Below the pieces are notes generated by a model that searched no databases, had not been told where the DNA came from, and saw nothing but the letters and a program-made list of their open reading frames with translations. DNA of 64,000 nt from Bacteroidales bacterium (GTDB lineage: Bacteria > Bacteroidota > Bacteroidia > Bacteroidales > F082). Of this stretch, positions 16,982 to 63,463 are shown one piece after another. Where the stretch lies: the NCBI GenBank assembly GCA_017530365.1, contig JAFXMK010000014.1, forward strand, positions 56,829 through 120,828, read 5' to 3'. Position numbers and translations under genes: made by a program. Positions within the stretch are counted from its first letter, which is position 1. The number at the start of each line of letters is the position of its first letter.

Positions 16982-17041
16982 AATTGAAAATTTAGTTAAT
17001 ACTTATTGTTAATTGATATATTGATTTCAATTTCAAGTTCA

Positions 17042-17077
17042 ATAAGGAGCGTCGCTTGTTGGGGCGACGCCCCTTAT
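17042..17077 (-). terminator. Strong hairpin between the two giant genes
   Basis: Arms of 14 bases (ATAAGGAGCGTCGC, 17042-17055; GCGACGCCCCTTAT, 17064-17077) pair with one mismatch around an 8-base loop, directly after the 1875-aa gene. There is no clear U-run after it on the minus strand, so it may attenuate readthrough or stabilise a 3' end rather than stop transcription fully. Confidence 0.6.
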
Positions 17078-17092
17078 ATTAATAGGTGTGCA

Positions 17093-20000
17093 TTATTTGG
17101 TCACGACCACACGTTTCACGCTGGAACCGTTGTTGGTGGTGATATTGATCATATAGACGCCTGCTTCGTAGCGAGCCATGTTGAGGATGAGTTCATCGCC
17201 CTTCACAGCTTGGTCGAATAGGATTTGGCCGAGGGTGTTGAGCACGCTGACGCGGACCATGTCGGCAGCCACGATGTGGAGGTCGCCGCTGGTCGGGTTA
17301 GGATAGATGCTGCTCACGATCTCGTTGCTGCCAACGCTGGTCAGCGGCACTCTGATCACGAGACCCATCGGGCAGGAGATGTTGTAGTTGGCATCCACAT
17401 AGACCACTTCATAGAGGTGCTCATCATAGTCGGTAGCAGTGACTGTGAAGGTGTTGTCGTTGGTTGCGCCGACCACTTCGCCATCAACAAGGATGTTGAA
17501 CTTGCCAGGAACGTAGGTCGAAGCACCAGCGCCGCCGCCACCACCTGTTTCGATGTAGGCGCGGACCATGAAGGTGTTGCTCAATCCAGCAGAGGCCAGA
17601 TCCATCCATGAAGAACCATCGGTGGAGACCCAGCGGCCGTTGGCATCGCCAGTATTGGCGCAGACAGCTGCAGGATAGGTAGCACCGCTGCCGTTGTAGA
17701 AGATCACCCAAAGGTTTTGAGTAGGATCAACGGTGATAGGATCAGCAAAGGTGAACTCGACAAAATCACCTATACCTGTGAAGGTAACATTGGTTTGACC
17801 GAGTGATGTGCCAGGAGCAGTATTGCCACCTTGGTAGATGGTCACATTACCAGTCATGGCCATGTAGTCGTATGCAGCAACCTTGGTCAGTTTGGTGCCA
17901 TCGTAGCTGCCAGCAGGCAACATGATGCCCCACCAGAAGTTACCACCACCAGTTCCGATAGCATCTTCGTTGATGCCGTTGTCATAGTAGTACCAGTTAC
18001 CGTCTTCGGTGAGGGCGCTGTTGGCGTTGCCGAAGCCCACGCCAGCGCTGCCGAGGTTACCGCCACGGAACGTGCTGCTGGTTCTGTTGTCCAAGCTCAT
18101 GAGACCCATGTTGGGTTGGTACAAGCACTTGCCACCAGTGACAGTGACATCAACGCCGTCGTTGGAACCATACATGGAGACGGTGAACTCATAGATGTGG
18201 CCACCTTCGAACACGTAGTCGTCATAACGACCGCCAACGTTACCGTTAGCTGCGGCAATCCAGAGACGATCGCCAGGAGTCGGGTTGACAATGCACCAGT
18301 CGTAGGTACCTGCGGGGATGGTGATCTCAACAGTGTTCATGAGAACGATGTTGGATGTTGTGCAGTTGCCATCGGCGTTGGTCGGGATCTTGTGGCTGAA
18401 CTGAGCGTAGATGGCATCGTTGCCAGAGCAGTTCATACTCAAAGCGCCAGTGGTAGGAATGACTGTGCCATAGAGTGAGTGAGTATCGTCAAGCAACATT
18501 TGGTAACCAGTACCGTCTTGCCAGATGTCAGGAGCAGTCAACTTAACGATGACATCGCCTGTAGGAGGTGTTGGTGGAGTCGGAGGAGTTGGGGTGCCGC
18601 CGCCATTGTTCCAGTTGAGGGTGATGTCCATGCTTTCGTCTTGGATAGGATCGTACCACAAGGAGTCAACCTGCGTGCCAACGGCATCGCAGCCGATGAA
18701 GGTGAAGTTGGCGGTCTTCCATGGGCTCATGCCAGTGGTGTAAATTACAGCGACCTTGGCTTGGTAGGTTTCACCAACGGTGAGGCCTTCCGTATTGAGC
18801 TGCATGAAGTTGTTAGTGGTCTCTCCTTGGAGAGCGTCGTTCATGTTGACGATATATCTTTCAGCGACTTCGCTGGCAGCAGGAATCATGTCGGTCCATC
18901 TAGCGAAACCAGTGCCGGAGACAACAAGGTTGTCAACAGGAGCGAAGATTTCGGTGAAGTGAGCCGTGATGGTGGTTTCGTTCCAGACGCTGATTTCAGT
19001 TTCGGTGAGATCGGATTCCATACCTTCAAGAGCCACGGTGATCTTGTATTCGCCCTTACGGAATTCTGGGAAGATCACAGCACCTGTGGTGTCGATGGTG
19101 CCGTTGAAGTTGGCGTTCTCGTTGAGGTTGGTCAAGGTGACGGTGGCGCCTTCGACAGAACCTGTGGAGGCGATAGCGTTCACGGTGAGAGCAGTGGTCA
19201 TATCCTTAGGCAGGACGTTGGACCAGGTGATGTCGGTGTTGGGGTTGTCGTTACTGCCTGCGCCGGACACATAATCGAAGGTGGTCTTAGGCAGGAAGTT
19301 GCGTTGTGAAGGTGAAACGCCATTTAAGGCATCGTAGCTATAACCTTGTACTGAGGCGCCAGTTACATTTTGGCCTACCCATGTGCATGATACGTATGAT
19401 CCCTTCACTGTGTTGTAGAATCCAACGAGGAGGTTGCCTCCATTATATGTATAAGGTGTGGAGAACTCAACCAGCATTTCGCCGCCGCTGATGCTCAAAG
19501 CACCTTCATAAACCACGGTGCCGCCTTCTGGACCAGCAAATGCACTGATCGTTGGGTCGCTCACTTCCTTCATGAAGACTTGGAAGTTGGCAGCGCCCCA
19601 GCTTACGCTAGGTGATGACGGAGCATAGAACTTCATGCTGCTGATGGTACCACCGGCCATTTCACCAATTTCAGTGGCGGGATACACCATCTCGCTCTTC
19701 AGGTAAGCATCGCAGTAGAAGCCATAAACCGGCACATAACCGTTAGTGGCAGTTCCATCAAAGACGGTGAATTCATCGCGATTGCCCTTGGCATCGCCAC
19801 CAGGATAAACGGCTTGGACACCATATTGATAGAGACCAGGTTCGACGTTGTTCCAGTCGAAGTCGGCATACAGGGTATCAGTGATAGGCAGGTTGGCAGC
19901 GAGTTTGAGTGAATCTTCAGCGACCAGATCATTCTCTTTCAGGATAGCCTTTCTATAGAGGTTGAAGTAGGCAACGTCACGGTTGGCCTTGCTGTTGACA

Positions 20001-22720
20001 GAGAGTTCGATATCGTCAACGCACATGATGTATTGGTCGTTGCAGTTGAAGTGACGGATGGCGATGTACTTTTGACCAGCGTAGTTGCTGAGGTCAACGC
20101 TGAATTCATGCCATGTGCCAATCTTGGCACCATTGCCATCGCGTGAGGTGTTGCTGCCTTTAGCGTTGTATTCTCTTTCCTTTGCTGTCAGTGTCCATGC
20201 CTGAACTTCAGTCCAGTCGCTGGTTCCGTTGTCGGAGACAAACACACCAAAGTGGTCAGCAGGATAGCCGGCGTCGCAAGCGGCAGCCCAGAAAGTGAAG
20301 GTAGAGCCATTGGCGATGGTCACTTGTGGGGTAACGAGATAGTCATCCGGAGTGATAGCGCCGATGCCGTTGATATAGGAACCGCTGCAGATGGCATTGC
20401 TGCCGGTGCGATACCAGTCAAGAGTCATACCAGCATAATAAGTCCAAGTGGTAGGAATGTCGCTGGTTAAAGTCCAAGTTGCAGCATCGTTGTTGGCGTT
20501 GATAATTGTCCAGCCGGTAGGCATGCCGCCTTCAAAGCCTTCGGTGAAGGTGCTGGCGCTTCCGCCGCCACCGCCGCCACCAGGAGTCGGGTTGACAAAG
20601 TCGTACATTGACCAGGTGACTTTAGCTGTGGAAGGATCCAATTCTTGTGCATATACCTTATATACAGGGTTGTAAACCTCGTGGAGCTGGAAGTCAACTT
20701 TGGTTACACCGTTGTAGGCAACTTCTTGAGGAGCGCTCATGAGAGCGTTTTCGAAGCCAGCCAGGCTAGCGACGCCTCTGTGATAGGTACCGGCAGCAAC
20801 ACTGACGGAATAAGCGCCTGTAGCGTTGGTGGTGGTGGTGAATTGAACGTCGTTTTCGAATTCGTCCTTACCATAGAACTTCACTTCGACATTCTCCATA
20901 GGCTCGCCGCTGTTCAGTTCAGTGACAGTGCCTTCGAACTTGCCGTAGCCAGTGACCTGTACTTTCACATGACCGTTGTCGAAGTTGGATTCACCTTCGT
21001 CATAGACGGCAGTGACGTGGATGTCGAGACCTGGATCAACGTTGTAAGGAAGTTCGGTGAGGGTGTATTGCTTTTCGACGATGAGCTCTTCGTTAGCCTT
21101 CACGGTATCATTACCGTTCACATAGTACACGTTGAAGCCGTGGATGTTACGGTTGCCACCCTTGCCACCGCAAACGAAGGTAGTCTTGGGCAGGAAGTCG
21201 CGCTGGGTATAGCTTGCTGCCGTAGCTGAGCTGCTACTGTAACCAGAAGCGGAGCTGCCAGTGGAGTTGATGCCGTAGAAAGAGCAGGAATGATAGGTGC
21301 CTTCGACCAACTGTTCGAAACCGACGAGGAGGTTGCCTCCGGTATATGTATAAGGTGTATCGAAGATGATGTCCATTGTGGTGCCACTACCATCGATTGC
21401 TCCGGTGTAAACGACTTGGCCATCGGATGGCATGTAATAGGAGGTCATCGTGGCGTTATCAACTTCCATCAGGAAGACGTTGAAGGTAGCAGGTGCCCAT
21501 GAAGCGCAAGGAGAGCTGATATAGAATGACATGGAGGTGATTTGTCCACCTTCCATTTCTTCGATCATCTCGGCAGGATAGATCATCTCGCTGAGGGTGT
21601 AGTCATCCATCCACAAGCCATAGACAGGAATATAGCTGCTGGTGTTGGTGCCGTCGGCAACGGTAATTTCACCGGTAAATCCACCGCCGGTAGAAGCGCC
21701 TTTCCATTTTACCAAGGTGCTTTGGTCGGTGTAGATCTGTGCTTCAGTGACCTCGACATTGGTAGGAGCGGCCAGTGTGGTGGTGAAGCCGTACCAATCA
21801 CTGACGAGTTCGCTCACGTTGTTTCTGATGGAGATTCTCCAGAAGTAGTGAGTGCTGGGCACGATGTATTCGGTGACATCGAAATAGCTGGGATCAGCAG
21901 GATAGTTTTCATCGATGGCAGTCCAATCAATCAAAGTGCCAGGATAATATTCTGAACCGAATTCAATCTTATATTCAGCTGCGTTGGGGTCAGTGATCCA
22001 TTGCAGATAGACGGAACCACCGACGTTCATGGCGCCAAACTCAGGAGAAAGGAGCTCAAGTGTGGTCATTGGCACATTCGGGTCACCCATCACCCAAGGA
22101 ACGAACTCTGGGGCAGGCATGGTGCCGCCACCACCACCAGAATATGTAAAGGTGGTCTTGGGTAAAAAGTTACGTTGGTTGAATGAAACACCATCGAGAG
22201 AGCTCGAATTGGCACCAGCGCCACTAGCACCTGTTACGTTCTCTCCGAAGAAATAGACAAATTGATAAGTGCCATCAGTGATGTTGTACACACCAACAAG
22301 CAAATTGCCACCATTGTAAGTGTAAGGCGTGGTAAATGTGATTTCCATTTCACCTACACCAGAGGGAGCGGTAAGAGATCCCTCGTAAACAATCGTAGCA
22401 CCTTCAAGACCTGAATAGGCATCGAGGGAAGCTGAAGCGACTTCCTTCAAGAAAACTTGTTGGGTGCTAGTCCATCCATTCGCAGAGCCAATGCTATGCA
22501 CATAGAATTTCATGCTTGTGATGGTGCCGCCATTCATGTCGGCAAGTTCACTTGCAGGGAATACGAACTCGCTCTTCGTGTAATCATCGAAGTAGCCACC
22601 ATACATGGGGATATAACCATTGTTGGCTGTCCCGTCATGAATGGTCAGTTCGTCTGCTCTCAAGAAGCTTGTGCTTCCGAAGAGAGCTAGCATCAAAAAG
22701 AGAATAAGTTTGTTTCTCAT
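17093..22720 (-). CDS. Giant gingipain/hemagglutinin-like T9SS adhesin (1875 aa)
   Basis: Secreted paralogue of the neighbouring 2595-aa protein. The signal peptide is about residues 1-22 (MRNKLILFLMLALFGSTSFLRA). A module of about 170 residues occurs three times (about 23-195, 350-517 and 983-1152). It begins DGTxxNGYxPxYG...SE, contains GGxIxSMxFY and TPYTYNGGNLLVG, and ends QRNFLPKTTF (QRDFLPKTTF in the second copy). Between copies lie a carboxypeptidase-regulatory-like domain (586-685) and a cleaved-adhesin jelly-roll (721-913). A second regulatory-like domain (1171-1263), DUF2436 (1395-1530; GDRLWIAAANGNVGGRYDD), the shared WYYYDNG module (1572-1730) and a type A sorting domain (about 1800-1875, YPNPTSGDLHIVA ... 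VKRVVVTK) complete it. Proline/glycine linkers (PTPPTPPTPPTG) separate domains. I infer a T9SS surface adhesin; the ligand is unknown. Confidence 0.85.
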   Translation of the reverse strand: MRNKLILFLMLALFGSTSFLRADELTIHDGTANNGYIPMYGGYFDDYTKSEFVFPASELADMNGGTITSMKFYVHSIGSANGWTSTQQVFLKEVASASLDAYSGLEGATIVYEGSLTAPSGVGEMEITFTTPYTYNGGNLLVGVYNITDGTYQFVYFFGENVTGASGAGANSSSLDGVSFNQRNFLPKTTFTYSGGGGGTMPAPEFVPWVMGDPNVPMTTLELLSPEFGAMNVGGSVYLQWITDPNAAEYKIEFGSEYYPGTLIDWTAIDENYPADPSYFDVTEYIVPSTHYFWRISIRNNVSELVSDWYGFTTTLAAPTNVEVTEAQIYTDQSTLVKWKGASTGGGFTGEITVADGTNTSSYIPVYGLWMDDYTLSEMIYPAEMIEEMEGGQITSMSFYISSPCASWAPATFNVFLMEVDNATMTSYYMPSDGQVVYTGAIDGSGTTMDIIFDTPYTYTGGNLLVGFEQLVEGTYHSCSFYGINSTGSSASGYSSSSATAASYTQRDFLPKTTFVCGGKGGNRNIHGFNVYYVNGNDTVKANEELIVEKQYTLTELPYNVDPGLDIHVTAVYDEGESNFDNGHVKVQVTGYGKFEGTVTELNSGEPMENVEVKFYGKDEFENDVQFTTTTNATGAYSVSVAAGTYHRGVASLAGFENALMSAPQEVAYNGVTKVDFQLHEVYNPVYKVYAQELDPSTAKVTWSMYDFVNPTPGGGGGGGSASTFTEGFEGGMPTGWTIINANNDAATWTLTSDIPTTWTYYAGMTLDWYRTGSNAICSGSYINGIGAITPDDYLVTPQVTIANGSTFTFWAAACDAGYPADHFGVFVSDNGTSDWTEVQAWTLTAKEREYNAKGSNTSRDGNGAKIGTWHEFSVDLSNYAGQKYIAIRHFNCNDQYIMCVDDIELSVNSKANRDVAYFNLYRKAILKENDLVAEDSLKLAANLPITDTLYADFDWNNVEPGLYQYGVQAVYPGGDAKGNRDEFTVFDGTATNGYVPVYGFYCDAYLKSEMVYPATEIGEMAGGTISSMKFYAPSSPSVSWGAANFQVFMKEVSDPTISAFAGPEGGTVVYEGALSISGGEMLVEFSTPYTYNGGNLLVGFYNTVKGSYVSCTWVGQNVTGASVQGYSYDALNGVSPSQRNFLPKTTFDYVSGAGSNDNPNTDITWSNVLPKDMTTALTVNAIASTGSVEGATVTLTNLNENANFNGTIDTTGAVIFPEFRKGEYKITVALEGMESDLTETEISVWNETTITAHFTEIFAPVDNLVVSGTGFARWTDMIPAASEVAERYIVNMNDALQGETTNNFMQLNTEGLTVGETYQAKVAVIYTTGMSPWKTANFTFIGCDAVGTQVDSLWYDPIQDESMDITLNWNNGGGTPTPPTPPTPPTGDVIVKLTAPDIWQDGTGYQMLLDDTHSLYGTVIPTTGALSMNCSGNDAIYAQFSHKIPTNADGNCTTSNIVLMNTVEITIPAGTYDWCIVNPTPGDRLWIAAANGNVGGRYDDYVFEGGHIYEFTVSMYGSNDGVDVTVTGGKCLYQPNMGLMSLDNRTSSTFRGGNLGSAGVGFGNANSALTEDGNWYYYDNGINEDAIGTGGGNFWWGIMLPAGSYDGTKLTKVAAYDYMAMTGNVTIYQGGNTAPGTSLGQTNVTFTGIGDFVEFTFADPITVDPTQNLWVIFYNGSGATYPAAVCANTGDANGRWVSTDGSSWMDLASAGLSNTFMVRAYIETGGGGGAGASTYVPGKFNILVDGEVVGATNDNTFTVTATDYDEHLYEVVYVDANYNISCPMGLVIRVPLTSVGSNEIVSSIYPNPTSGDLHIVAADMVRVSVLNTLGQILFDQAVKGDELILNMARYEAGVYMINITTNNGSSVKRVVVTK

Positions 22721-49034: not shown

Positions 49035-49880
49035 TTAATATTCCCAGAGGCTCTGTTCATAGTCGAACATCTCGGTCTTGATGCGCTCTGATTCGTAGAG
49101 AGCGTCGATGTTCAAAGCGTAGGAGTTGATGTAGCGGTCGTACATGTTCTCTTCCTTGACGATGTAGCTATCGAACACGCGTTTGGTGAGGATCTCCTCG
49201 TAGGTGCGGCGTTCGGCGCCGTTCTTGCGGTTGGCTACGAAAGCCTCGGAGAGCACCTTACGGGTTTGGTCATCGTAAGGAATCCAGCAAGCCTGAGAGA
49301 GTCCGTCTTCATCCACGATGATGGGACCGAGGGCGATGATTCTCACGAGGAACTGCGACAAGTGCTTGTCGAAGTACCAGTCTTCCTTGATACGGAGACG
49401 AGAGACGTTGACCATACGGTCCTTGAAGACGATCTCGTTGGCGACTTCCACGCCGTCACGCATGATGACAGGTGGGTCACCGATCTTGGTGTTTTCCTTC
49501 TCGAAGTCATCGCGCGTCAGCGGCGTGACCATATCGTCGATATTGTTCTCCACTCGGTAGGCGGTAATACGTCCGTCAAGGATGCCATCGTAGAGCACCG
49601 TGGCGAGGTTTCTCCAATCTTCGGTAGGGTTGACAGGATAGTAGAACACTTGGTTGATCTTCTGTCGGAAATCGATCTCGCGGATGATGGTCTTCTTCCA
49701 CATCACATACTCCTCACGGATCTCCGGAAGGGGAGAGAGCTTCTTCTCGACCATGATATCTTGACGTTTCGACAGAATGCTGTTCTTGGGAGGCTTGACG
49801 TCGGTGGTCTGAGCGGTGAGGCTCAGCACCATGCCGAAAAGCATCGCGGCTGTCAGTGTTGAAACAAGTGTTTTTTTCAT
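49035..49880 (-). CDS. gldN: T9SS ring protein GldN/PorN
   Basis: A 281-aa periplasmic protein with signal peptide (MKKTLVSTLTAAMLFGMVLSLTAQ, read as two parts). GldN/PorN associates with the lipoprotein GldK/PorK to form the large periplasmic ring of the type IX secretion system. Family features: VMWKKTIIREIDFRQKINQ and FYYPVNPTEDWRNLATVLYD in the first half, DWYFDKHLSQFLVRIIALGP later. Length is near that of PorN-type proteins. It lies 24 bases after gldM in the gldKLMN operon. Confidence 0.92.
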   Translation of the reverse strand: MKKTLVSTLTAAMLFGMVLSLTAQTTDVKPPKNSILSKRQDIMVEKKLSPLPEIREEYVMWKKTIIREIDFRQKINQVFYYPVNPTEDWRNLATVLYDGILDGRITAYRVENNIDDMVTPLTRDDFEKENTKIGDPPVIMRDGVEVANEIVFKDRMVNVSRLRIKEDWYFDKHLSQFLVRIIALGPIIVDEDGLSQACWIPYDDQTRKVLSEAFVANRKNGAERRTYEEILTKRVFDSYIVKEENMYDRYINSYALNIDALYESERIKTEMFDYEQSLWEY

Positions 49881-49904
49881 CTTCTATGGTTTTAAGTTGT
49901 TGTC

Positions 49905-51629
49905 TTATTTGATTTCAACGGCGATCTGAGTGTCAAGTACTTTCTCCTTGTTGTCATTACCACGCACGCGGATGGCGGTGAACACGTAGATGTCGCCTGC
50001 GTTAGCGGAGTTGAACACACTCTTCAGCGTCTCGTTGAACCTTGAACCGGTGACCTTTTCTTCTTTCGTGGTGCCAGCCTTGGTTCTGTATTTCACGGTA
50101 TAGCCGGTCACATCGTAGTGGACACCTTCGAAGTCGAAGTCTTTCATCTCGGCTCTCACCATGTTGGCAGCGAGCAGGGCGCCCTTGGTGACTTTGCCGT
50201 CAGAGCCTACGTTGTCGATCTTGGCAGTCGGTTTTGGCAGTTCCTTCACGCGGAACTTCATGCTGCCCAGTGAGCTACCTTGCGAGCTGACGTGCACCAC
50301 CACTTCGTTGGCGCCGCCATTGACGCGGAGGTTGTAGGTGCCGTTGCCTGTACGAGTTAGGCTAGCGCCGGTGGCAGTGGCTGAGATCTCACCGCCCACA
50401 CCGCCGCCGATGGCAATCGGGTTGTCGATGCCGGCATAGACGACATTCATCTTGGTGGCGGAAACGCTCACCGCAGGAGGTGCCACGGTGAAGGAGTTCT
50501 CAAAAGTGAAGTCCTCCAACTCATTGGTCTTGGGGTTACGCATCTGGATGACGCCGGTGTATTTGTGGGAACCCACACCAACGTTGTATTCCAGGTCGAT
50601 GACGCCTTGGCTGTTGCTGGCATATTCCTTCTCGGGACCACCGTCGAGACGCACTCTTGCTGTGGTCTGGGTGTTTTGCCAAGCTGTAACCATTGCTTGT
50701 GCCTTATATTTCTGTCCAGAGAGGATGTAGCTGCTCTCTGCGAACACCTTGGCACCGATCTCGTCGAAAGTGTAGTCGTCAGCATGGATGTCTGACATCA
50801 ATTCGGTGATAGCGTTCAATTCGGCGGTCTCAGCCTCGGAGATGATCTTGTTGAGCAAGGTCACGTCGGCGACCAACACGGTATGGTGGAAGTTTTCATA
50901 TTCCCAACTGTCTTGCACCGCATCGGTGATGCCAGGATAGTAGCTGATCTTGGCACCATAGACGTCGCCTTCCAGAGGCAACTTCTTCATCTGGCTCTCA
51001 GAATAGCCGTTTTGTTTCAGGTATTCTTTCTCACCATAGATGCTGTCGGTGATCAGTCCGATTTCGTGGATGTGATCGGCCCCCATGGCCTTCACCACTT
51101 CACCGCGGAAGCGTCTGATCTTCTCGGAAAGCTCGTAAGCCTTGCCGCCATTGCCAGGACCTTCTGGATTACCCATCATATATTCTGTGGGACGGTTATA
51201 GTTGTCTCTCGACTTGACGATGGCGGTGTTGATGTCGTAGATCAAACGACCGTTTCGAAGGGTGTCGGCTGATTTCAGCAAGCCACTTTCGAGTGCCTGG
51301 CTGGCATCTTTGCCTTCCACTCTTTTCACGAGGTCCCATTTTAGGGCTTCGACGAAGTTGATCAGGTCATCGGCTTCCTTTCTCAAGTTCTGTGCCTGTT
51401 CCCAGTAGGGGCCGACCTTTTCTTGGTCGAGGCCATACTGTTCTTCAAAGGCGGTGTATTTTTGGTCGATCTGGTTCGACAGCGTGATGTTGGTGGTCTG
51501 GACACCTGCGTTCACTGTGTCGAATGCATCGAGGATATCTTTCGAGACATTCATGGCAAGAAGGGCAGTGTACACGAGGTACATCATGCCGATCATTTTC
51601 TGTCTCGGGGTTTCTTTAGCGCCTGACAT
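49905..51629 (-). CDS. gldM: T9SS inner-membrane motor protein GldM/PorM
   Basis: A 574-aa protein with one N-terminal membrane helix after a short cytoplasmic stretch (SGAKETPRQKMIGMMYLVYT, ALLAMNVSKDILDAF) and a long periplasmic part made of beta domains. GldM and GldL form the proton-driven motor that powers secretion; the GldM periplasmic arm reaches the GldK-GldN ring. It is somewhat longer than the roughly 515 aa usual for this family. It starts 35 bases after gldL and ends 24 bases before gldN. Confidence 0.93.
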   Translation of the reverse strand: MSGAKETPRQKMIGMMYLVYTALLAMNVSKDILDAFDTVNAGVQTTNITLSNQIDQKYTAFEEQYGLDQEKVGPYWEQAQNLRKEADDLINFVEALKWDLVKRVEGKDASQALESGLLKSADTLRNGRLIYDINTAIVKSRDNYNRPTEYMMGNPEGPGNGGKAYELSEKIRRFRGEVVKAMGADHIHEIGLITDSIYGEKEYLKQNGYSESQMKKLPLEGDVYGAKISYYPGITDAVQDSWEYENFHHTVLVADVTLLNKIISEAETAELNAITELMSDIHADDYTFDEIGAKVFAESSYILSGQKYKAQAMVTAWQNTQTTARVRLDGGPEKEYASNSQGVIDLEYNVGVGSHKYTGVIQMRNPKTNELEDFTFENSFTVAPPAVSVSATKMNVVYAGIDNPIAIGGGVGGEISATATGASLTRTGNGTYNLRVNGGANEVVVHVSSQGSSLGSMKFRVKELPKPTAKIDNVGSDGKVTKGALLAANMVRAEMKDFDFEGVHYDVTGYTVKYRTKAGTTKEEKVTGSRFNETLKSVFNSANAGDIYVFTAIRVRGNDNKEKVLDTQIAVEIK

Positions 51630-51664
51630 AGTGTCGTACTCCTTTCTTTAGTTCTTGAAGTAGA

Positions 51665-52423
51665 TTATGCCTTGATATTCATTGCTGACAGCATGCCGCC
51701 ATAGACATTGTTCAATGCGCTCAAGCGTGATGACAGCTGGGTCAGTTGCTTGTTGAGCTCGTTGGCGTTGTTGGCAGAAGCGTTGAGGTTGTCCATGTAG
51801 CTGGTCATCGTAGCGGCGAGCTTGCTGGAAGCGCTGGAAGTCTGCTCCATGCTTTGGAGTTGGATCTCGCAGATCGAATTGAGCGACTGCATGCTGGTGG
51901 CCACTTTTCTGAGCGTGTTGGTGTCCAGAGCGCTGAAGTCGAGCTTGTTCAACGAGTCAGTTAATTGTTGGTTGGATTTGGTATAGTTGTTGGCGAAATC
52001 GCTGATGGTTCTAGTGGCCTGTTCCATGGCCTTGGCGTAGTTATTGGTGGCTGAGGCGGCATTTGACATGGCTTCGTCCATCAAGGGCGAGTTGATGTTG
52101 CTATTGTTGTTGACCGCATTGCCTGTAGTGCCAAAGACTGTGTGTTTCTCACCATCCCAATCTTCCTCAAGTTCCACGAAGACGTTGTCCCATGCATAAT
52201 CAACGTGCTGGGGTTCGAAAGCTGAAAGGAAGAAGATGACAGCTTCAATACCCAGACCCAAAGCCAACATGAAGTCAGCACCTTGGATATGAGTCAGCTT
52301 GAAGTAAGCACCGATCATCACCACTGCAGCACCCCAACCATAGAAATAGCCCATGATTTTCTTGAACCTTTTCGAGACGAGGAATTTTTGGAATCCACTA
52401 AGTTGTTCTTTGTTTTTTGCCAT
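51665..52423 (-). CDS. gldL: T9SS inner-membrane motor protein GldL/PorL
   Basis: A 252-aa protein with two membrane helices (about residues 20-42, KKIMGYFYGWGAAVVMIGAY; and about 50-68, FMLALGLGIEAVIFFLSAF) and a cytoplasmic tail rich in Asn, Ser and Gln that is probably coiled coil. The second helix holds the Glu (in GLGIEAVIF) that is functionally critical in GldL as the proton-channel residue. With GldM it builds the T9SS motor. It lies 61 bases downstream of gldK. Confidence 0.93.
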   Translation of the reverse strand: MAKNKEQLSGFQKFLVSKRFKKIMGYFYGWGAAVVMIGAYFKLTHIQGADFMLALGLGIEAVIFFLSAFEPQHVDYAWDNVFVELEEDWDGEKHTVFGTTGNAVNNNSNINSPLMDEAMSNAASATNNYAKAMEQATRTISDFANNYTKSNQQLTDSLNKLDFSALDTNTLRKVATSMQSLNSICEIQLQSMEQTSSASSKLAATMTSYMDNLNASANNANELNKQLTQLSSRLSALNNVYGGMLSAMNIKA

Positions 52424-52484
52424 GACAAATAATTCTTAAAATGTTCTTTTTTAGTATGTTAATAAATATCTTTTAACTTTCAAT

Positions 52485-53894
52485 TTATCTATAGACTCTC
52501 GAAATCCTCGGATTATCGCCCTTGTTACGACCCATGAAAGGTTGGATGGTACGGAAACCGATATAGCTTCTAGCAGTGTCTTGGTACTCGAAATCGCGGG
52601 TGGTTACTTGGATATAATAGGAGATGTCTTTCCAGGAGCCGCCGCGGATGACTTTACGTTTCATGACCGGAGGGTCGTCATCCTGAGCATTGTAGGTGTA
52701 GTCGGGGTTCATATCCCAAGTGAAGTTGTAGGAGGTGGGATCGAAGGCGCTGTTGGTCCATTCAGCCACGTTGCCCGACATGTCGTACAAGCCGTAGTGG
52801 TTAGGAGGATAGCATCCCACGATGAGTGTTCTCAGGCCGCCGTCGGCAAGATAGTTGCCTCTCAAAGGCTTGAAGTTGGCCAGGAAACAGCCTTTCACGT
52901 TTCTGGTGCCGGGGCCTCCCCATGGATAGGGGTTCAGACGGTCGCCGCCGCGTGCTGCCCATTCCCATTCAGTCTCGGTGGGGAGACGGAATTCAGACAC
53001 CAAGGCACTCTTCTTGGAGGAGAGGAAAGCGTTTCTGAGTTGGGTTCTCCAAGTGCAGAAAGCCCTGGCTTGTTGCCAAGTGACACCTACCACGGGGTAG
53101 TTGTCGTAAGCCTGATGCCAGAAATATCTCTCGGTCATAGGATCGTTGAAGGAATAGGCGTAGTCATGGATCCAGCACAAGGTGTCAGGATAGACGTTGA
53201 TGGCTTCCTGACGGACATACACCGAACGGTCGGTGTAGCCTTGCTTACGGTTGGTCCAAGCTCCCTTCCTGTTTGGGGAGATGCCGTTGTCGGCCTCTCC
53301 AATGGAGTAGTCGTTCGGTGTGAGATCCTCGCCTGCAAACTCCTTGCGAGCAGCAGCCCGTAAGTCAACCCAAAAATATGAATAATACAATTTACGGGTG
53401 TCGATTTCCTTGGCGCGGAAATATCTCTCATGTTCTGGAAGATACATGGGTTCCAAAGCCTCTCTCACTTCCTGGTCCTTACTGTTCCAGTCGATCTTCT
53501 CTTTCCAATTCAGGACTGGTGGATCCAGTGTCTCGCCATTCTTTGTCTCGCTGATGGCATAGACATCGGGGTTGACTTCGGCGAGAATCCTTCTTGCGAT
53601 GGAGTCTCTGACCCAATATACGAATTGCCTGTACTCGTTGTTGGTGATTTCCGTCTCATCCATGAAGAAAGCGGAGACAGAAACAGTCTTCGGCTCATAC
53701 AGCATGGCGGAGTTGATGTCTTCACCACCAACCCCCATGGTATAGCTTCCCATTGGGATGAAAACCATTCCGTACGGGTCGGGCTGGTTGAAAGAAGAGG
53801 ATGATTTGCGTACGCCAACCAATTCCCCTTGATTGCCTCTTCCACAGGATGCAAGCAGCAATGCTACGGAAAAAACAAACAGTAATTTTTTCAT
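52485..53894 (-). CDS. gldK: T9SS ring lipoprotein GldK/PorK
   Basis: A 469-aa outer-membrane lipoprotein (MKKLLFVFSVALLLASC, lipobox LASC, Cys17). The fold is that of formylglycine-generating enzyme/sulfatase-modifying factor: MVFIPMGSYTMGVGGED, FMDETEITNNEYRQFVYW, EFRLPTETEWEWAARGG, GLYDMSGNVAEWTNSAFDP and RKVIRGGSWKD ... YIGFRTI. In GldK/PorK this domain is structural. GldK and GldN form the periplasmic T9SS ring. An upstream in-frame ATG at 53909 would add MIIKK; 53894 gives the cleaner signal peptide. It follows porP by 107 bases. Confidence 0.93.
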   Translation of the reverse strand: MKKLLFVFSVALLLASCGRGNQGELVGVRKSSSSFNQPDPYGMVFIPMGSYTMGVGGEDINSAMLYEPKTVSVSAFFMDETEITNNEYRQFVYWVRDSIARRILAEVNPDVYAISETKNGETLDPPVLNWKEKIDWNSKDQEVREALEPMYLPEHERYFRAKEIDTRKLYYSYFWVDLRAAARKEFAGEDLTPNDYSIGEADNGISPNRKGAWTNRKQGYTDRSVYVRQEAINVYPDTLCWIHDYAYSFNDPMTERYFWHQAYDNYPVVGVTWQQARAFCTWRTQLRNAFLSSKKSALVSEFRLPTETEWEWAARGGDRLNPYPWGGPGTRNVKGCFLANFKPLRGNYLADGGLRTLIVGCYPPNHYGLYDMSGNVAEWTNSAFDPTSYNFTWDMNPDYTYNAQDDDPPVMKRKVIRGGSWKDISYYIQVTTRDFEYQDTARSYIGFRTIQPFMGRNKGDNPRISRVYR

Positions 53895-54001
53895 CTTCTT
53901 GATAATCATATAGTTGTCTATCTTCTAAATGTTCAGGGTCTATTCCAATTAACCACCAAAAGCTTCAAATATTGTATTTACAGGGAATTTTTTTTCAATC
54001 A

Positions 54002-54967
54002 TTACAGATATCTGACGCTTCGGTAGTCTCTCGGCGTTCTGTCGGTGTCTAACTTGAAGCAATAACTCAAAGCGATTTCATGTGAGCCGGGAATATTGTG
54101 GCCCATGGTGTTGATGTCGTATGCATAGCCAAGCACAAAGTCTTTGATGGCTAATCCAATGGTCACGCCAACCGATTCTTGGGGGCGGTAGTTGACACCC
54201 AGTGACAAGAGGTCGTTATAAACCACCTTCATGCCGGCGTTGAGCTGCCAAGAGGAGATGTTGGTCATGAAGTTGACGGATGGGATGAATTTGAATTTCG
54301 ACATGGAATCAAACATGAAAGGATAGCCAACGACTGCATAGAGGGTTCTGTCGGTGGTGAAGCTGGCTGCACTTTCCGACTCGCCCAGGGATCTGCTCGT
54401 GGTGTTGAGGAGGTTGATGCCCGACACGCCAATGTAGAACGATTCGGGAATCTGGAAGAAAAGTCCCGCGCTGAAGTCGAACAGCATGCCGCTCTCTTCG
54501 CCAAGTTGGTTGAGTAAGGGATCACCGGGTTGGCCAGGAACCAAGGAACCGAAATTGACGGCGCGGTTCAGCAACGATGCCGATACGCCAAGTCCCAAGG
54601 TAGAGCCGCCTAAATCGAAATGATAAGCATAACCCAATCCCACGTTGGTGTTTTTCTCATATCCCAATTGGTCGTTCAGCACCGAGAGGCTGATGCCGCC
54701 TCCCAGAGCCGGAATGGGCATGTCAGCTGTAACGAGAAGGGTTTGGGGTGCCAAGCTGTTCCCTAAATCGTCGGTGAATCCACCAGCCCATTGCTGCCTA
54801 TACAAGCCCAGCAGGTTCACGCCTTCGCTCAAGCCGGCAAAGCCAGGGTTGATGTAGGTGTAGGAGTTGTTGTAGTTGGTGAATATCGGAGCCTGCTGCG
54901 CCTTTAATCCCGTCATGGAAAGGATCACGAGGCCAATTGCGAGGACGATGACTTTCAGTTTTGACAT
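54002..54967 (-). CDS. porP: PorP/SprF family type IX secretion membrane protein
   Basis: A 321-aa outer-membrane beta-barrel protein with signal peptide (MSKLKVIVLAIGLVILSMTG, then LKAQ). The mature start QQAPIFTNYNNSYTYINPGF and the later NPGFAGLSEGVNLLGLYRQQW are typical of PorP/SprF proteins. Barrel strands alternate, ending in HEIALSYCFKLDTD. PorP connects the T9SS ring to the outer membrane or anchors cargo. It opens the porP-gldKLMN cluster in the order known from Porphyromonas. Confidence 0.9.
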   Translation of the reverse strand: MSKLKVIVLAIGLVILSMTGLKAQQAPIFTNYNNSYTYINPGFAGLSEGVNLLGLYRQQWAGGFTDDLGNSLAPQTLLVTADMPIPALGGGISLSVLNDQLGYEKNTNVGLGYAYHFDLGGSTLGLGVSASLLNRAVNFGSLVPGQPGDPLLNQLGEESGMLFDFSAGLFFQIPESFYIGVSGINLLNTTSRSLGESESAASFTTDRTLYAVVGYPFMFDSMSKFKFIPSVNFMTNISSWQLNAGMKVVYNDLLSLGVNYRPQESVGVTIGLAIKDFVLGYAYDINTMGHNIPGSHEIALSYCFKLDTDRTPRDYRSVRYL

Positions 54968-57413: not shown

Positions 57414-57444
57414 CATAATTATTGTTTATTCGTCGCAATTATCC

Positions 57445-58785
57445 TTACAACCTTCGTTCAATGAGTGTGATCTGGCCTTTACAAGTACCATTGGTGCAAT
57501 GGAAGAAGTTTACCAACGGGTCGCCGATGATGGTGAGGCCGAAGTTCCAGCAAAGTAAAGAATCTACATTATTGACATTTGTATTTTTGTTTCTCCACCA
57601 ATCAACTAAAGATTGTCCCATTGTTTCTCCATTGTGTAATGAAGAATAAAACTTCGCAAAAGGATACATACCTCCAACTTTTGTACTACCAACAACGGAA
57701 AGCCCTTCTGAATTTGGCGAATAAATATAATCTCCTGCCAAAAAGGCGTGCGAAGGCATTGTGTCTATGGTCCAGCAACAAGCACTGCAACAAAACAAGT
57801 TGAGGCCGAGAGTTTTAATATTATGCGAATATAATTCGCCGCCCCATAAAGTATCATGAGTATATTCATTAATAGGCACATGAGAATAAAAAAAAGAATG
57901 AGCAGCAAGTTGAACGAATTCGTATCTGTAGTTACTTAATCTTTCTAAATAATCAGGTTTTCCATAAATAGATGGATTGCCATCGGGAGTGAAACTTTCT
58001 TTATAACCTCCATATAGATTAGATATGTGGTTTGAAAAGTATGAATTGTTTTGCCAAGATTTATCAGTATATGCCAACGCATATTTTTTATTCACTTTTC
58101 GATGACCAATCCAGTACTTATGGTTTTTATTCAAATACAATCGCATCCCTTCTATTTCACCAATGAGGTTTCCCATGTTGGCGGTTGATATACGTCCAAT
58201 AAATATCTCGGGTTTCATATCTCCCGAATAATGGTCAAAAAAGTTGTCATTATTTTGATCCGACCAAACACCTGTTAGATCCATATAATATAAATCACAC
58301 GGCCAAATCGCTATTTCATTGTCATGGATAGCATCAGCTGTTTTATAGAAAGAGGGGGCGATGTCTCCTATTAAAACACATCCATCCAAATTGTTTTGAT
58401 AGCTAACGATTAAGCTCTTGATGTCGAGACAAGTTTCTGAGTCAACTTGCTCCATAATTACATTGCAACCATATACATAATGAATATCATATGCATATCT
58501 ATTAATTTCAAAATCCAAATCTGAATATAAGGTTGAATCAACAACAATCAATACTTTACGGAGCAAATTTGCTTGATTGGACGCAGGAATGTTCATGATT
58601 TGGGTATGTGAAAACAAGCCTTGTGGTAATTGAGTATAGCGATTACTTACAGTTGTGGGGTTGTGATCATATTCATTGAATAGTCCTGATAAATTAATCT
58701 GACCATTGTTTTCTTGGCTAAATAATAAAGCCGTTTTTACAATATAAATTGATAAAAACAACACGATTCTTATACTTTTTTTCAT
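57445..58785 (-). CDS. C25 (gingipain-fold) peptidase-like protein, copy B, C-terminally truncated
   Basis: A 446-aa secreted protein (signal peptide MKKSIRIVLFLSIYIVKTAL ending near LFSQ). Gingipain-type landmarks: WPCDLYYMDLTGVWSDQNND and PEIFIGRIST before the active-site half; the putative catalytic pair is His296 (AAHSFFYSH) and a Cys in FCCSACCW (residues 331-338), followed by GLSVVGSTKVGGM. Gingipains have GHGS where AAHS lies here. No T9SS sorting domain is present. Relative to copy A, the DNA lacks 176 bp between the codons for TLI and the ancestral C-terminus; the frame shifts and stops at ERRL, while the old end (CKDNCDE codons and stop) remains out of frame downstream. It starts in an ATGA overlap with the partner gene. 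Confidence 0.75.
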   Translation of the reverse strand: MKKSIRIVLFLSIYIVKTALLFSQENNGQINLSGLFNEYDHNPTTVSNRYTQLPQGLFSHTQIMNIPASNQANLLRKVLIVVDSTLYSDLDFEINRYAYDIHYVYGCNVIMEQVDSETCLDIKSLIVSYQNNLDGCVLIGDIAPSFYKTADAIHDNEIAIWPCDLYYMDLTGVWSDQNNDNFFDHYSGDMKPEIFIGRISTANMGNLIGEIEGMRLYLNKNHKYWIGHRKVNKKYALAYTDKSWQNNSYFSNHISNLYGGYKESFTPDGNPSIYGKPDYLERLSNYRYEFVQLAAHSFFYSHVPINEYTHDTLWGGELYSHNIKTLGLNLFCCSACCWTIDTMPSHAFLAGDYIYSPNSEGLSVVGSTKVGGMYPFAKFYSSLHNGETMGQSLVDWWRNKNTNVNNVDSLLCWNFGLTIIGDPLVNFFHCTNGTCKGQITLIERRL

Positions 58786-60176
58786 TGTATTACCACCTTT
58801 CTGGACGCTGTTTGTCCGTTTTCAAAAACAATCTGAATGATAGCCATGTCCTTAAATTCCTTCAAATCAAGTGAGACTTGTTTTGAATTGTAGGATCTGT
58901 TTAGCAATTCGCACCCCATGTAGTCGTAAACATAGATACTATTGATCGGCTGCTCCGAAACAATTTCAACGAACCCTTTTGTTGGATTTGGATAGATCTG
59001 TATTTCAGAAAGTGAGCTTTCTTGTACATTTGTTGTTATAGTCGCTTCAGAGATATAAACACGATAATATGGGTTGAATTCATTGTTGATTTTGAGTGTT
59101 GATGTCAAAGTAGCTGCTAACTCCGCGCCTCTCCATATGGTATCATTGCCAACAATAATTGCGCTACCATAATTAATTCTTTCATTGTCAAGATAATAGT
59201 TTTTGTTACCACTATAAAAAGCCAACTCCAATCCAGGTAATGGAACATGCCCAACAGCCGGGCATGGCGCATCCTGCAATATTCCGTATAAGGTCTTTTC
59301 TTCTAGCGATTGTAAAACAACGATGTCAAAAGAAAGGAATACGCTACCAAATATGTCATAACGAGCGGTTTTCACACCGCCAACCGTAACAGGTGTATTT
59401 TCTTCATAAAGAGCTGAATTGATAAAACCATGTTGTAAGACTTCTTTAATGGTAAGATAATAATAATCGGTTCCATCGTTTACTGCTAGGCATGGAACAT
59501 CCATGTGTAAGCCATTACTAAGGGTAAGGGTACCTTCTATATTATCGGTGGCGACGCCAAATGGAATAGCAAAAACTAAGTTAAAAACAGGAACTGGTTC
59601 GCCATAATAATCAGGCCAAGTTTCATGTGTGCCAACAAAAATATATTGTGAAGTGGAGTTAATAGTAACTCCATTAACTATCCAAGTATAATCCGTTTGC
59701 AATTCGCCGTCAATAGCAACAAAATAAAGGAGGTCGCCATTTATATTATAGATAGCGTATGCTTCAATCGGATCGGGGTTTTGATAAGCTATGGGACTAA
59801 GCCACCCCATCCAATATATGCGAGAATTATAATACAAATAATCGGCATTTATCAGTTCTTGTATATCAATAACACCAAACCTTTCCCCGTTCCCATCTTC
59901 CATTTCCAAAATGGTTCCCACGACCTCAACTTCGTTGCCGACAGGGATGGTATCATAATGAATAACCAAATCTTCCAGATAAGGATTCGGCCAGTAGTTG
60001 TCCACCATGACGTAATAGGTCTCGCCTTCGGCCATAATGGCAAAGCGGCTGTCGCAGACGTTCTGTTCGAAATAGGGAGCGGCGACGCGGCTCACCACGC
60101 CGGTGATGGTGTCCTGGGCGATGCCACTATAGGCAGCGACCAGCAGTGTGATTAATAAAATGAGGTTCTTTTTCAT
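58782..60176 (-). CDS. T9SS-sorted partner protein of the C25-like peptidase, copy B
   Basis: A 464-aa secreted protein of unknown family: signal peptide (MKKNLILLITLLVAAYSGIA), then TGVVSRVAAPYFEQNVCDSR and YYVMVDNYWPNPYLEDLVIH. The middle repeats a loose pattern (G-x-V/L ... YYY/YFI ... IxxG-x-V) two or three times, which could be small beta-barrels such as OB folds (inference). The C-terminus is a type A T9SS sorting domain (IQIYPNPTKGFVEIVSEQ ... KVVIQ). The first ~70 residues are almost identical at DNA level to copy A, whereas the rest is highly diverged and more AT-rich. The stop overlaps the C25-like start by 4 bases, so the pair is translationally coupled. Confidence 0.75.
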   Translation of the reverse strand: MKKNLILLITLLVAAYSGIAQDTITGVVSRVAAPYFEQNVCDSRFAIMAEGETYYVMVDNYWPNPYLEDLVIHYDTIPVGNEVEVVGTILEMEDGNGERFGVIDIQELINADYLYYNSRIYWMGWLSPIAYQNPDPIEAYAIYNINGDLLYFVAIDGELQTDYTWIVNGVTINSTSQYIFVGTHETWPDYYGEPVPVFNLVFAIPFGVATDNIEGTLTLSNGLHMDVPCLAVNDGTDYYYLTIKEVLQHGFINSALYEENTPVTVGGVKTARYDIFGSVFLSFDIVVLQSLEEKTLYGILQDAPCPAVGHVPLPGLELAFYSGNKNYYLDNERINYGSAIIVGNDTIWRGAELAATLTSTLKINNEFNPYYRVYISEATITTNVQESSLSEIQIYPNPTKGFVEIVSEQPINSIYVYDYMGCELLNRSYNSKQVSLDLKEFKDMAIIQIVFENGQTASRKVVIQ

Positions 60177-60187
60177 GGCATTGGGTT

Positions 60188-61718
60188 TTATTCATCGCAA
60201 TTATCCTTACAACCTTCGTTCAATATTTCCAGCGTGCTTCCCGACGGGCAAAGGAATTCCCCGTCAATGACCACGGTTGGGGCGTTGAGGATGCAATGGT
60301 CACCCATGGGAATGGTGAATGATCCTGACGTGGGAGCGACCGTGATGCTCTCACTGGCGAGATAGTAGGACAACGGCGAGTTGGAGTTGTCGTATGAGAT
60401 GAGTGTGATCTGATCTTTACAAGAGCCGTTAGTGCAATGGAAGAAGTTGACCAAAGGGTCGCCGATGATGGTGAGACCGAAGAACCAACATATTTTTTTG
60501 TTTTTAGTCATTGTTCTGTAATAGTTAGTTAGCCACCAATTAACAAACGCTTGTCCCATGGTTTGTTCATTATGAAGATGTTGGTAAAAAGCGGGCATAT
60601 CCAACATGGATCCAACTTTAGTACAACCCATGAGAGATAATACAGAGGATTTGGGACCATAAACATAGTTTCCGCCTAAATATGCGTAACTATACCAGTT
60701 GCAGGCTGAACAGCAATATAGATTCATACCTATGGCATTTACGCCATTAGCGTATATCTTTGAACTATTAATATAGACCTTTAATGTGTCATAGGAATTT
60801 GTGGCGTTAGGGACAAGTGAATCAAAAATATGTGAATATGAAAAAGAATGGCTTGCCAATTGGACAAACTCGTATTTATCATTTTGGAGTCTTTCAAGAT
60901 AATCATCTGCACAAAAAACTACAGAGTCGGATGTAAATGCTTCATATTGATTTGGTCCGTATAAATATTGAATACCGTTGATGAGGTCGTTTTGAGAATT
61001 GTTCCAGGAAGCATTCGTATATGATAATGCATGTTTTTTGTTTACTTGTCGATGTCCAATCCAAAAAGCATGGTTTTTATCCATATACTTCTCAAATAGT
61101 TCCAAGTTCATCACTCTCGTTTCCAACAAATCTTGTGTAAATCCTTCCAACAAATATCTCGGGATTGAAAGAGCCTGTGTAATCGTCAAAAACATTATTG
61201 TGAGTATTATCAATCCAAACATCGTCTAAATCCATATAATACATATCACAGGGCCACGATGTAAATGTGTTATGATTAATGACATCATAAGCCTCGTACC
61301 ATGCTGGTTCAATGTTTCCAATAAAAACCACGCCACCTAAATTAGTAGAGTTGCTTAAAATAATGTTTTTGACATCAACACATGTTTCGCCCTTTATGAC
61401 AATCATTTGTATTTCGCACCCATAAACATTGTAGATGTCGTAAGCATATCTTCTGATAGGATATTCATATAATGAGTATAGTGTGGAATCTGCAAAGATT
61501 AATATTTTGTCTAATGTGTTACTTTGTGTTCTCTCAGGAAGATGCATGACTTCTGAAACATAAAGATCTCCTTCGTTAACATAAGTGTATGTAACATTCG
61601 GAACCGTAAAATCAATTTCATTGAAATAACCGTTTAATTCTATGATATCCGTTTGGTTTTGTGCTTGTGCTGTAACAATGAATAATAGCAAAAAGAATAT
61701 AATGTGGTATTTTTTCAT
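60188..61718 (-). pseudogene. C25 (gingipain-fold) peptidase-like gene, copy A, interrupted by a one-base frameshift
   Basis: The frame starting at 61718 (signal peptide MKKYHIIFFLLLFIVTAQAQ) encodes the N-terminal half through WPCDMYYMDLDDVWID and PEIFVGRIYTRFVGNESDE, then runs to a stop at 61092. The continuation (LELFEKYMDKNHAFWIGHRQ) is in another frame. Removing one base at about 61106 joins the two exactly in register with copy B. The rest has SHSFSYSH and CCSACNW (putative catalytic His and Cys) and a C-terminal extension (about 55 residues, ITVAPTSGSFTIPMGDHC ... EILNEGCKDNCDE) absent from copy B. It is either a true pseudogene, a phase-variable gene or a sequencing error. The intact gene would encode roughly 510 aa. 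Confidence 0.7.
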
Positions 61719-63163
61719 TTGACAATTATTTTTGAAGTTATAACATTACAATTACTTAATTCTATTTGGATAAATAATAAACCATGGATTCCAAGATTAC
61801 TGAATTGAATGTTATTATCCCTGCATGGTTTTGATATAATGAGACATCCTTTAGAATCCATTATGTCAACATGTGTGATGACATGGCCTTTGCTGTAAAT
61901 GTATATAACATCATCTGCCGGGTTTGGAAATACTTGAATTTCTGGTAAATCCAACTCATCAACTCCAGTCAAACCATCTATTCCCGTAATAATAATATAG
62001 AAAACAGGATTTCTATAGTTGTTCATTACGATACTTGGAATAAAGGTAGCTGTTGCTTCTTGGCCAAAATCATAATAAATGGTATCGTTGCCTATTATAA
62101 AGGCATTATATAAATAACTGTAAGATTGAGGATCCCAAACTTTAGGATTATCAATATAAAACTCCATATAATAATCTCCATAACAGCTAAATGCCATGTC
62201 TGCGCCTGGTATTGGAGGCCCCATACCTATATATGGCGTTCCTGCAACTGTCAACGTTCCAGCGAGAGTTGTTTGCTCCTCCGTTTCCATTTTTATGACT
62301 TCAAATGCATTGAAAGGTGCGCCAAACAAGTCATAACGGATAAACGCAAAGCCACCAGCATCAACTGTTGTGTTGTTTCCAAAGGCATTCCTGATGTCAT
62401 AAAGCGTGTATCTGTTTTGAAGTGCTCCTTTGTTCGTGACATAATGATGTGCCTCTCCATCAAAAACTGAAAGGTAAGGCGATTCCTCACGAGGCCAAGA
62501 AAGGCATAAATCGTTTTCAGTAGTAAGAATTCCGTTTATGCTTAAATCTTCTTGATCCATTGGTTGAGCATCAATCAGTTCGTAGACGAGGAAAGTGTTG
62601 CCGTTATAGTCGGTCAAGCTGTCACTTTCGCCAACAAACAGATACCGTTTGTCCTCAACAAGTGTTCGGCCATTGATGACAAATGGACGTTCTGTCTGGA
62701 GTTCTCCATTTATAGTAATGAAATAGAATTCTGTTCCGGTGTATTTGTCAAAACTTGCTGCCAAAACAGGATCTGGTCCCGAATACGAAACACTGCGATA
62801 GCCAAAAAAACCAGGAATATGCCGATGTGTAGAGTTCAGGTTCTTGCTGATGTCAATAGTCCGAAAAGCATCCCCATTCCCATCTTCCATTCCCAAAATG
62901 GTTCCCATGACTTCAACATCGTTGCCGACCGGAATGGTGTCGTAATGGATGACCAGTTCCTCCAGATAAGGATTCGGCCAATAGTTGTCCACCATGACGT
63001 AATAGGTCTCGCCTTCGGCCATAATGGCAAAGCGGCTGTCGCAGACGTTCTGTTCGAAATAGGGAGCGGCGACGCGGCTCACCACGCCAGTGAGGGTGTC
63101 TTGGGCGAAGCCTTGGAAGGCTATCGCCAGCAGTATGAATAATAGAGTAAAGGTCTTTTTCAT
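61715..63163 (-). CDS. T9SS-sorted partner protein of the C25-like peptidase, copy A
   Basis: A 482-aa secreted protein, paralogous to the 58782-60176 gene. The signal peptide is MKKTFTLLFILLAIAFQGFA; the start at 63163 gives it directly. The following TLTGVVSRVAAPYFEQNV and NYWPNPYLEELVIHYDTIPV are shared with copy B. Later segments (RTLVEDKRYLFVGESDSLTD, HHYVTNKGALQNRYTLYDIR) correspond only loosely. The C-terminus is a type A sorting domain (IQVFPNPADDVIYIYSKG ... SKIIVK). It overlaps the C25-like start by 4 bases, the same coupling as in copy B, suggesting that partner and peptidase are made in fixed proportion and may act together at the surface. Confidence 0.75.
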   Translation of the reverse strand: MKKTFTLLFILLAIAFQGFAQDTLTGVVSRVAAPYFEQNVCDSRFAIMAEGETYYVMVDNYWPNPYLEELVIHYDTIPVGNDVEVMGTILGMEDGNGDAFRTIDISKNLNSTHRHIPGFFGYRSVSYSGPDPVLAASFDKYTGTEFYFITINGELQTERPFVINGRTLVEDKRYLFVGESDSLTDYNGNTFLVYELIDAQPMDQEDLSINGILTTENDLCLSWPREESPYLSVFDGEAHHYVTNKGALQNRYTLYDIRNAFGNNTTVDAGGFAFIRYDLFGAPFNAFEVIKMETEEQTTLAGTLTVAGTPYIGMGPPIPGADMAFSCYGDYYMEFYIDNPKVWDPQSYSYLYNAFIIGNDTIYYDFGQEATATFIPSIVMNNYRNPVFYIIITGIDGLTGVDELDLPEIQVFPNPADDVIYIYSKGHVITHVDIMDSKGCLIISKPCRDNNIQFSNLGIHGLLFIQIELSNCNVITSKIIVK

Positions 63164-63170
63164 GGCTCCG

Positions 63171-63384
63171 TTATTTTGAGGTAATAACCATCCGCTTGGT
63201 GTCAATTAGTTTTCCGTCCACCAACGTTGGGTTCAAAGCTGCTTTTGCCTGTATTATCAATCTGAACTCCTCCTGAAGTAGTTGTGGACTGAATGCTCAC
63301 TTGTCCGCTGGGATGCATCTTGATTTGTGCATTGGACATGATGCATAGTGCGGATAGGATAATGAAAAAGAGTGTTTTTTTCAT
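63171..63384 (-). pseudogene. Remnant of a T9SS-type secreted protein gene
   Basis: A frame of 60 codons starts with a signal peptide (MKKTLFFIILSALCIMSNAQ), continues IKMHPSGQVSIQSTTTSGG and ends GKSSFEPNVGGRKTN-stop. In the next frame the same DNA reads LVDGKLIDTKRMVITSK-stop (stop at 63171-63173), which looks like the last beta strands of a T9SS or tail-fibre-type secreted protein. Head and tail of one such gene thus appear to be joined out of frame after loss of the middle. If translated, it makes a short secreted peptide. Confidence 0.45.
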
Positions 63385-63411
63385 AATATATGAGTTTTTA
63401 TCGGTTTGCCG

Positions 63412-63419
63412 CAAAGTTA
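63412..63419 (-). promoter_or_regulatory. -7 box TAACTTTG for the C25-like/partner operon
   Basis: Minus-strand TAACTTTGC 27 bases before the ATG of the remnant. It is the only good box seen upstream of the five-gene array, whose gaps are short (down to overlaps of 4 bases), so it probably drives the whole operon. Confidence 0.5.
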
Positions 63420-63463
63420 ATGATTTTAAGAAACGATGTCAACCCCTATCCAAACTTTTGTAA

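Follow-up and report, generated by a model that had tools for sequence, protein, structure and literature searches.

The 64,000-nucleotide stretch of Bacteroidales DNA studied here (the window, meaning the whole stretch) carries on its minus strand a gene module, X–partner–peptidase, that is specific to the genus and is present here in duplicated and decayed form. X and the partner are secreted proteins that end in a sorting domain (CTD, for C-terminal domain) of the type IX secretion system (T9SS), and the peptidase is related to the gingipain-type C25 family. The window copies are damaged; undamaged sets are present in three relatives. For the module, we consider the most likely single mechanism, at a probability of roughly 0.42, to be that the peptidase is a genus-specific surface protease displayed via CTD proteins translated from the same message, the partner and/or X, through a binding step that we infer.

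The CTD by which the T9SS recognises a substrate is part of the substrate's own polypeptide, and searches for this domain are the basis of cargo prediction. Such searches would miss an enzyme that lacks a CTD and travels with a CTD-bearing neighbour, and in that case a complex of two chains would have to pass the translocon. Among the top-ranked papers in searches of largely open-access literature, we found none on a T9SS protease that has no CTD and is carried by a CTD protein encoded next to it. The undamaged sets in the three relatives make sorting in trans testable, which the damaged window copies do not.

The window carries a decayed, duplicated module

As described in the initial annotation of this DNA, the locus holds two partner–peptidase units, A and B (57445-63163; this and all locus features below lie on the minus strand), and in both units the partner's stop codon and the peptidase's start share a four-base ATGA overlap. 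Partner A (61715-63163, 482 aa) comprises a signal peptide (by eye), repeats and a CTD, and partner B (58782-60176) has 464 aa, both delineated from the open reading frame (ORF), Pfam matches and alignment. The assignment of a T9SS sorting domain to both partners and to neither peptidase was borne out. The type A domain PF18962 scored 29.8 bits in partner A (61721-61933) and 28.6 bits in partner B (58788-58997), both above the cut-off of 27; TIGR04183 scored 21.5 and 23.0 bits, just below and at its cut-off of 23, respectively; and neither peptidase had a match.

This two-unit anatomy stands, but the state of the peptidases and a third gene had been overlooked. Peptidase A, previously taken as one gene, is interrupted by a frame break near 61.1 kb; its sequence is divided between the frames 61092-61718 and 60188-61222, and alignments with relatives extend over the two. 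Its N-terminal piece (61092-61718) breaks near its end, and its C-terminal piece, placed at 60188-61120 in the other frame, contains the putative catalytic His (60848-60850) and Cys (60710-60712) codons and a tail of ~75 aa that is also kept in five relatives. Peptidase B (57445-58785, 446 aa, from ORF and alignment) has an open frame and a whole catalytic domain, and its final residues are a short foreign sequence, ERRL; the ~75 conserved C-terminal residues are gone, and their remains lie out of frame behind the stop codon (57426-57461), with 97% DNA identity over 38 bases to the end of peptidase A. A further stretch at the unit ends is 88% identical over 291 bases, compared to 65-81% in aligned columns for most of the rest. 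Finally, a 60-aa ORF (63202-63384), sited between a promoter-like site and partner A, is the head of gene X: in tblastn searches, it matched X from residue 1 to residues 52-56 in the relatives G079, G067, G087 and G081 (genome labels are ours). Because peptidase A is split, the tail of peptidase B is lost and X is cut to 60 aa, we conclude that the window locus is decayed, and display of the peptidase in the window genome is probably failing or reduced. The genomes compared are largely metagenome-assembled genomes (MAGs), in which single-base breaks, including the frame break in the window, may be assembly errors. Programmed frameshifting was considered for the broken peptidases and rejected, as the breaks fall at three different places, near residue 60 in G099, 125 in G081 and 200 in window peptidase A.

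The promoter proposed for the locus corresponds to a match to TTG-N20-TAACTTTG, of the Bacteroidota -33/-7 promoter type, at 63412-63442, 27 bases before the ATG at 63384. The match is weak by itself: the motif scan gave 2 matches in the window against 0.51 expected, and two or more were reached in 9 of 100 shuffles. As the start codon of partner A, alignment favours the ATG at 63163 over a TTG at 63205, which was discarded; in several comparisons, including the partner tree, partner A was taken from 63160, so that its first Met is missing.

The peptidase always follows a partner

Searches of 149 genomes of the bacterial family, which like those used in the partner, order, phylum and class searches are samples of larger groups, returned a strong peptidase match (E<1e-40) in six (G000, G067, G079, G081, G087 and G099), all of one genus. 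At an E value of 0.001, any match was seen in 95 of the 149, with 89 of these being weak only and mostly within large open frames. The tail was detected in the same six of 99 genus genomes and in none of the others at E 0.01, a search that misses copies with a lost tail. In all seven peptidase copies, from six genomes and at least three chromosomal places, the peptidase lies directly behind a partner with the ATGA overlap. The undamaged X–partner–peptidase set is that of G067, G079 and G087.

Full-length X is a secreted CTD protein of 327-330 aa in G079, G067, G087 and G081, and the two of these four proteins that were scanned had CTD scores of 30.0 and 31.5 bits. Strong X matches (E<1e-100) were confined to four of the 99 genus genomes, all with the peptidase, and in each of them X is situated 7 bases upstream of the partner. 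Full X accompanies all three undamaged full-length peptidases (G067, G079, G087). Where the genome lacks full X, three of three peptidase copies are damaged (window A, window B and G099); where it has full X, one of four is, the numbers being small.

The chromosomal setting of the locus varies. In G000, G099, G100 and G143 it occupies a site beside M23-RseP, with a partner and no peptidase in G100 and G143. A second site, flanked by genes labelled by eye as diacylglycerol-kinase-like and acetate-CoA-ligase-like, is used in G087, G081, G067 (where the locus spans two contigs), G041, G102, G014 and G114; the last four have partners only, and X is missing there as well. In G079, the locus lies at a third chromosomal place.

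Compact partners, defined as frames shorter than 600 aa, occur in at least 15 genomes and provided 20 rows of the partner tree. In seven of these rows a peptidase follows the partner directly; among the 13 others, G087b and G067C20b are directly downstream of one. The window genome belongs to the Candidatus Limimorpha group: of the partner matches with a species name, the top one is from Ca. Limimorpha equi (L084, on the same contig as G133, a genome of the window's genus), and further matches came from rumen and gut Bacteroidales MAGs.

A C25-like peptidase without a recognisable sorting domain

The C25-likeness claimed for the peptidases was supported by an invariant His/Cys pair and by a profile comparison with the C25 proteins of these bacteria. 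With hhalign, an eight-member peptidase profile aligned to 24 C25 rows (all of the bacterial family, including 22 of the genus) at 96.6%, E 7e-10 and a score of 85.8 over 280 columns, whereas controls reached at most 25.8 in 20 column shuffles, 16.1 for the reversed profile and 30.6 for the unrelated partner profile. Scores against the Pfam C25 family, PF01364 (cut-off 23), were 22.7 bits for peptidase B, 27.5 for the N-terminal piece of peptidase A, 29.3 for G067, 27.3 for G087, 22.0 for G079 and 40.8 for a more distant relative in G503; the C-terminal piece of peptidase A and the relatives in G318, G339, G456 and G219 had no match. Scores of 141-155 bits were obtained for the C25 protein encoded in the window genome (L004) and for two of the 24 C25 rows. 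The candidate catalytic His in its AHS/SHS context was present as described: all 10 family rows share His296 (codon 57898-57900 in peptidase B). The Cys-rich CCSAC strand is likewise present, but only its second Cys, Cys333 (codon 57787-57789), is invariant in the wider family, in all nine rows that reach the column. Here, hhalign sets the third CCSAC Cys opposite the C25 Cys, and the C-x4-aromatic spacing favours the second.

What the peptidase shares with PF01364, as represented by this bacterial family's large C25 proteins, comprises the 280-column homology, the aligned His, the Cys motif and a GDP motif near the domain end. GHG is the C25 motif. Unlike C25, the Limimorpha peptidase is only 446-516 aa long, has AHS/SHS in place of GHG, and lacks both a propeptide match and a CTD in cis. 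The propeptide family PF08126 was not matched in the window pieces or the three intact relatives and was present in three classic C25 proteins scanned, and Pfam and NCBIfam scans revealed no CTD in the window peptidases or the same three relatives. A PorU sortase identity was not indicated, the best match being NF052318 at 15 bits (cut-off 40) in the N-terminal piece of peptidase A. PDB sequence searches with the peptidase returned unrelated weak matches and no C25 structure, and an AlphaFold2 prediction from 5 sequences had a mean pLDDT (predicted local distance difference test) of 32.6, too low for a reading of the fold. By eye, the peptidase has a Sec-type signal peptide. Lipoprotein anchoring was rejected, also by eye, as the lipobox form is absent and the signal-region Cys residues of G081 and G099 are not in that form. 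The ratio of nonsynonymous to synonymous substitution rates (dN/dS) for peptidase B was 0.10-0.16 against G079, G087 and G099 and saturated against G067; over the seven unsaturated of ten pairs among these five sequences it was 0.10-0.19, a rough estimate given that dS exceeded 1.4 in six.

At an E value of 1e-12, the peptidase profile found six of 344 order genomes, the window's included, and one of 395 phylum genomes, the window's own. The G503 relative (L115:3812-5359; profile E 6.6e-34) belongs to the same subfamily and shares the invariant His/Cys, and differs by carrying its own CTD (58.3 bits) in the same chain as the C25 domain, with no partner gene beside it. Relatives in G318, G339 and G219 (partial) have N-termini that appear lipoprotein-like by eye, and the G456 relative contains a hemopexin insert and has no evident signal. 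A wider profile at E 1e-10 matched at least 87 of 395 class genomes, with most alignments covering the domain's first half, and all five wider relatives scanned carry a CTD in cis. As kin mostly bear either a CTD or an apparent lipobox in cis, a cis signal is usual among the kin seen, with the Limimorpha form as the exception. The wider relatives represent a widespread class-level family of T9SS proteins (L133, L134, L137-L140, L145 and L155) related to the C25-like domain; the His/Cys pair is apparently replaced in the eight examined by eye, and Pfam C25 matches were absent or below cut-off in the five scanned.

The partner has a near-constant first repeat

The initial annotation recognised no family in the middle part of the partner, and we found none: the repeats there match no Pfam, NCBIfam or PDB family, and a PDB sequence search with the partner gave matches in the CTD region only. 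By hhalign, the repeats form two related pairs, r1-r4 (89%) and r2-r3 (63%), with cross pairs at 14% or below. Over 17 partners (the window's and the L085-L098 set), the first repeat has a mean identity of 81%, compared to 38-48% for the other repeats and the CTD. The near-constant first repeat is also present in partners without a peptidase, and its job can therefore not be only to hold the peptidase.

The frame of the G099 partner is open upstream of its first ATG. The partner module additionally occurs within secreted proteins of 750-990 aa, following an N-terminal part that looks propeller-like by eye (L021, L022, L023, L028, L073 and L083). In Ca. Limimorpha equi (L080:4214-5752), a foreign leader similar to the start of X-like proteins precedes a partner in the same frame. 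The C-terminal part of this fusion differs from the usual CTD, and the contig ends there.

Display in trans and its alternatives

According to the mechanism that we favour, the peptidase of the intact relatives would be exported by Sec and would then bind the CTD-bearing product of the same message, the partner and/or X. It should be displayed at the surface together with its bound carrier, the sorting signal thereby acting in trans. Display of this kind is favoured by the overlap in seven of seven copies, the invariable position of the peptidase behind a partner, the cis signals of its kin and the confinement of strong X matches to peptidase genomes; that kin carry a CTD or an apparent lipobox in cis also makes carriage via the partner plausible. 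The extended version of this proposal is more tentative. Here, the sorting signal of a T9SS protease would have moved to another gene, leaving a CTD-less C25-clan peptidase to reach the surface only via interchangeable co-translated CTD proteins with a near-constant first repeat and variable others, X serving as a second carrier, such that the T9SS accepts cargo in trans.

Related arrangements are known. The functional domains of RgpA and Kgp of Porphyromonas gingivalis associate non-covalently into complexes (PMC9963840), and resemble the proposed assembly in this respect; there, however, the adhesin domains stem from the same precursor chains, whereas here two genes and unrelated repeats are involved. 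Type B CTD substrates and PorP/SprF-like shuttles likewise form gene-linked T9SS pairs (PMC12618676), but the neighbour is a shuttle, while in our case a peptidase adjoins a type A CTD protein.

Several observations weigh against display in trans through a dedicated carrier. Gene-pair conservation, which the initial annotation had proposed to examine by profile search, was seen from the peptidase side (7/7) but not from the partner side, where no peptidase directly follows 13 of the 20 compact rows, and nine of 15 compact-partner genomes, among the matches listed, lack a strong peptidase match. The partner is thus largely widespread without a C25-like neighbour, which the initial annotation had named as refuting its two-component idea. 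In the partner tree, the paired members do not group together (7 changes versus a shuffled mean of 6.0), and four of the seven sit beside solo ones, e.g. G087a by G041; this scatter gives no sign of co-evolution. Four-base overlaps like the partner–peptidase junction also occur in G114 (L071:8289-8292), between two partners, and in G143 (L075:2796-2799), where a different gene ending in a CTD is joined to a partner. Together, the scattered tree, the many solo partners and these junctions disfavour a dedicated pair. Moreover, the peptidase has a conserved ~75-aa tail of its own, and G081 combines a full X with a broken peptidase.

The same junctions and scattered pairing would be expected if there were no complex at all, that is, if the genes were independent members of a recombining array of T9SS cargo, with the ATGA junction and the repeated partners easing insertion and the peptidase staying periplasmic. 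The DNA likeness of the unit ends, well above that of most of the remaining sequence, and the other genomes in which each of the two main chromosomal sites holds partners and no peptidase point the same way. The constant position of the peptidase behind a partner and the tie of strong X to peptidase genomes speak against independence, and a free periplasmic enzyme would be unusual since kin mostly bear surface or lipid signals, so we regard this explanation as somewhat unlikely. The tail raises another alternative, in which it would be an undescribed sorting domain that lets the peptidase export or anchor itself, the partner being merely a co-expressed neighbour. Its retention in all six peptidase genomes fits this idea, as do a weak strand prediction (AlphaFold2 pLDDT about 57) and a length close to the 67-88 residues given for PorU-processed CTDs (PMC11285876). 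Conversely, Pfam and NCBIfam scans of the tail returned nothing at E 10, its hhalign scores of 14.1 against CTDs and 15.3 against GCX_COOH are no higher than the 16.2 reached by 40 shuffles against the GCX_COOH profile, peptidase B has lost it, and a sorting domain confined to a single protein family would be odd; we therefore judge self-anchoring unlikely. Least probable is that X and not the partner is the cognate companion of the peptidase. Although strong X occurs only alongside the peptidase and X is missing where partners alone occupy the same site, the partner separates X from the peptidase, and G099 and the window have no full X, numbers again being small.

The tail was also considered as a GCX_COOH domain, a type of tail also called three-coathanger-stack. 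It looked right by eye and was rejected, with no NF045639 match at E 10 and an hhalign score within the shuffles. GCX_COOH regions were noted by eye in peptidase-like proteins of ~575 aa (L122, L123 and L124), where they precede a CTD-like end and are not C-terminal.

Genomic surroundings

The T9SS core genes PorN, PorM, PorL and PorK, together with a PorP/SprF-family gene, are located at 49035-54967 of the window, just downstream of M23 and RseP, so that the cargo genes adjoin the secretion machine. Elsewhere in the window, two very long minus-strand ORFs of 2595 and 1875 aa span 9194-22720.

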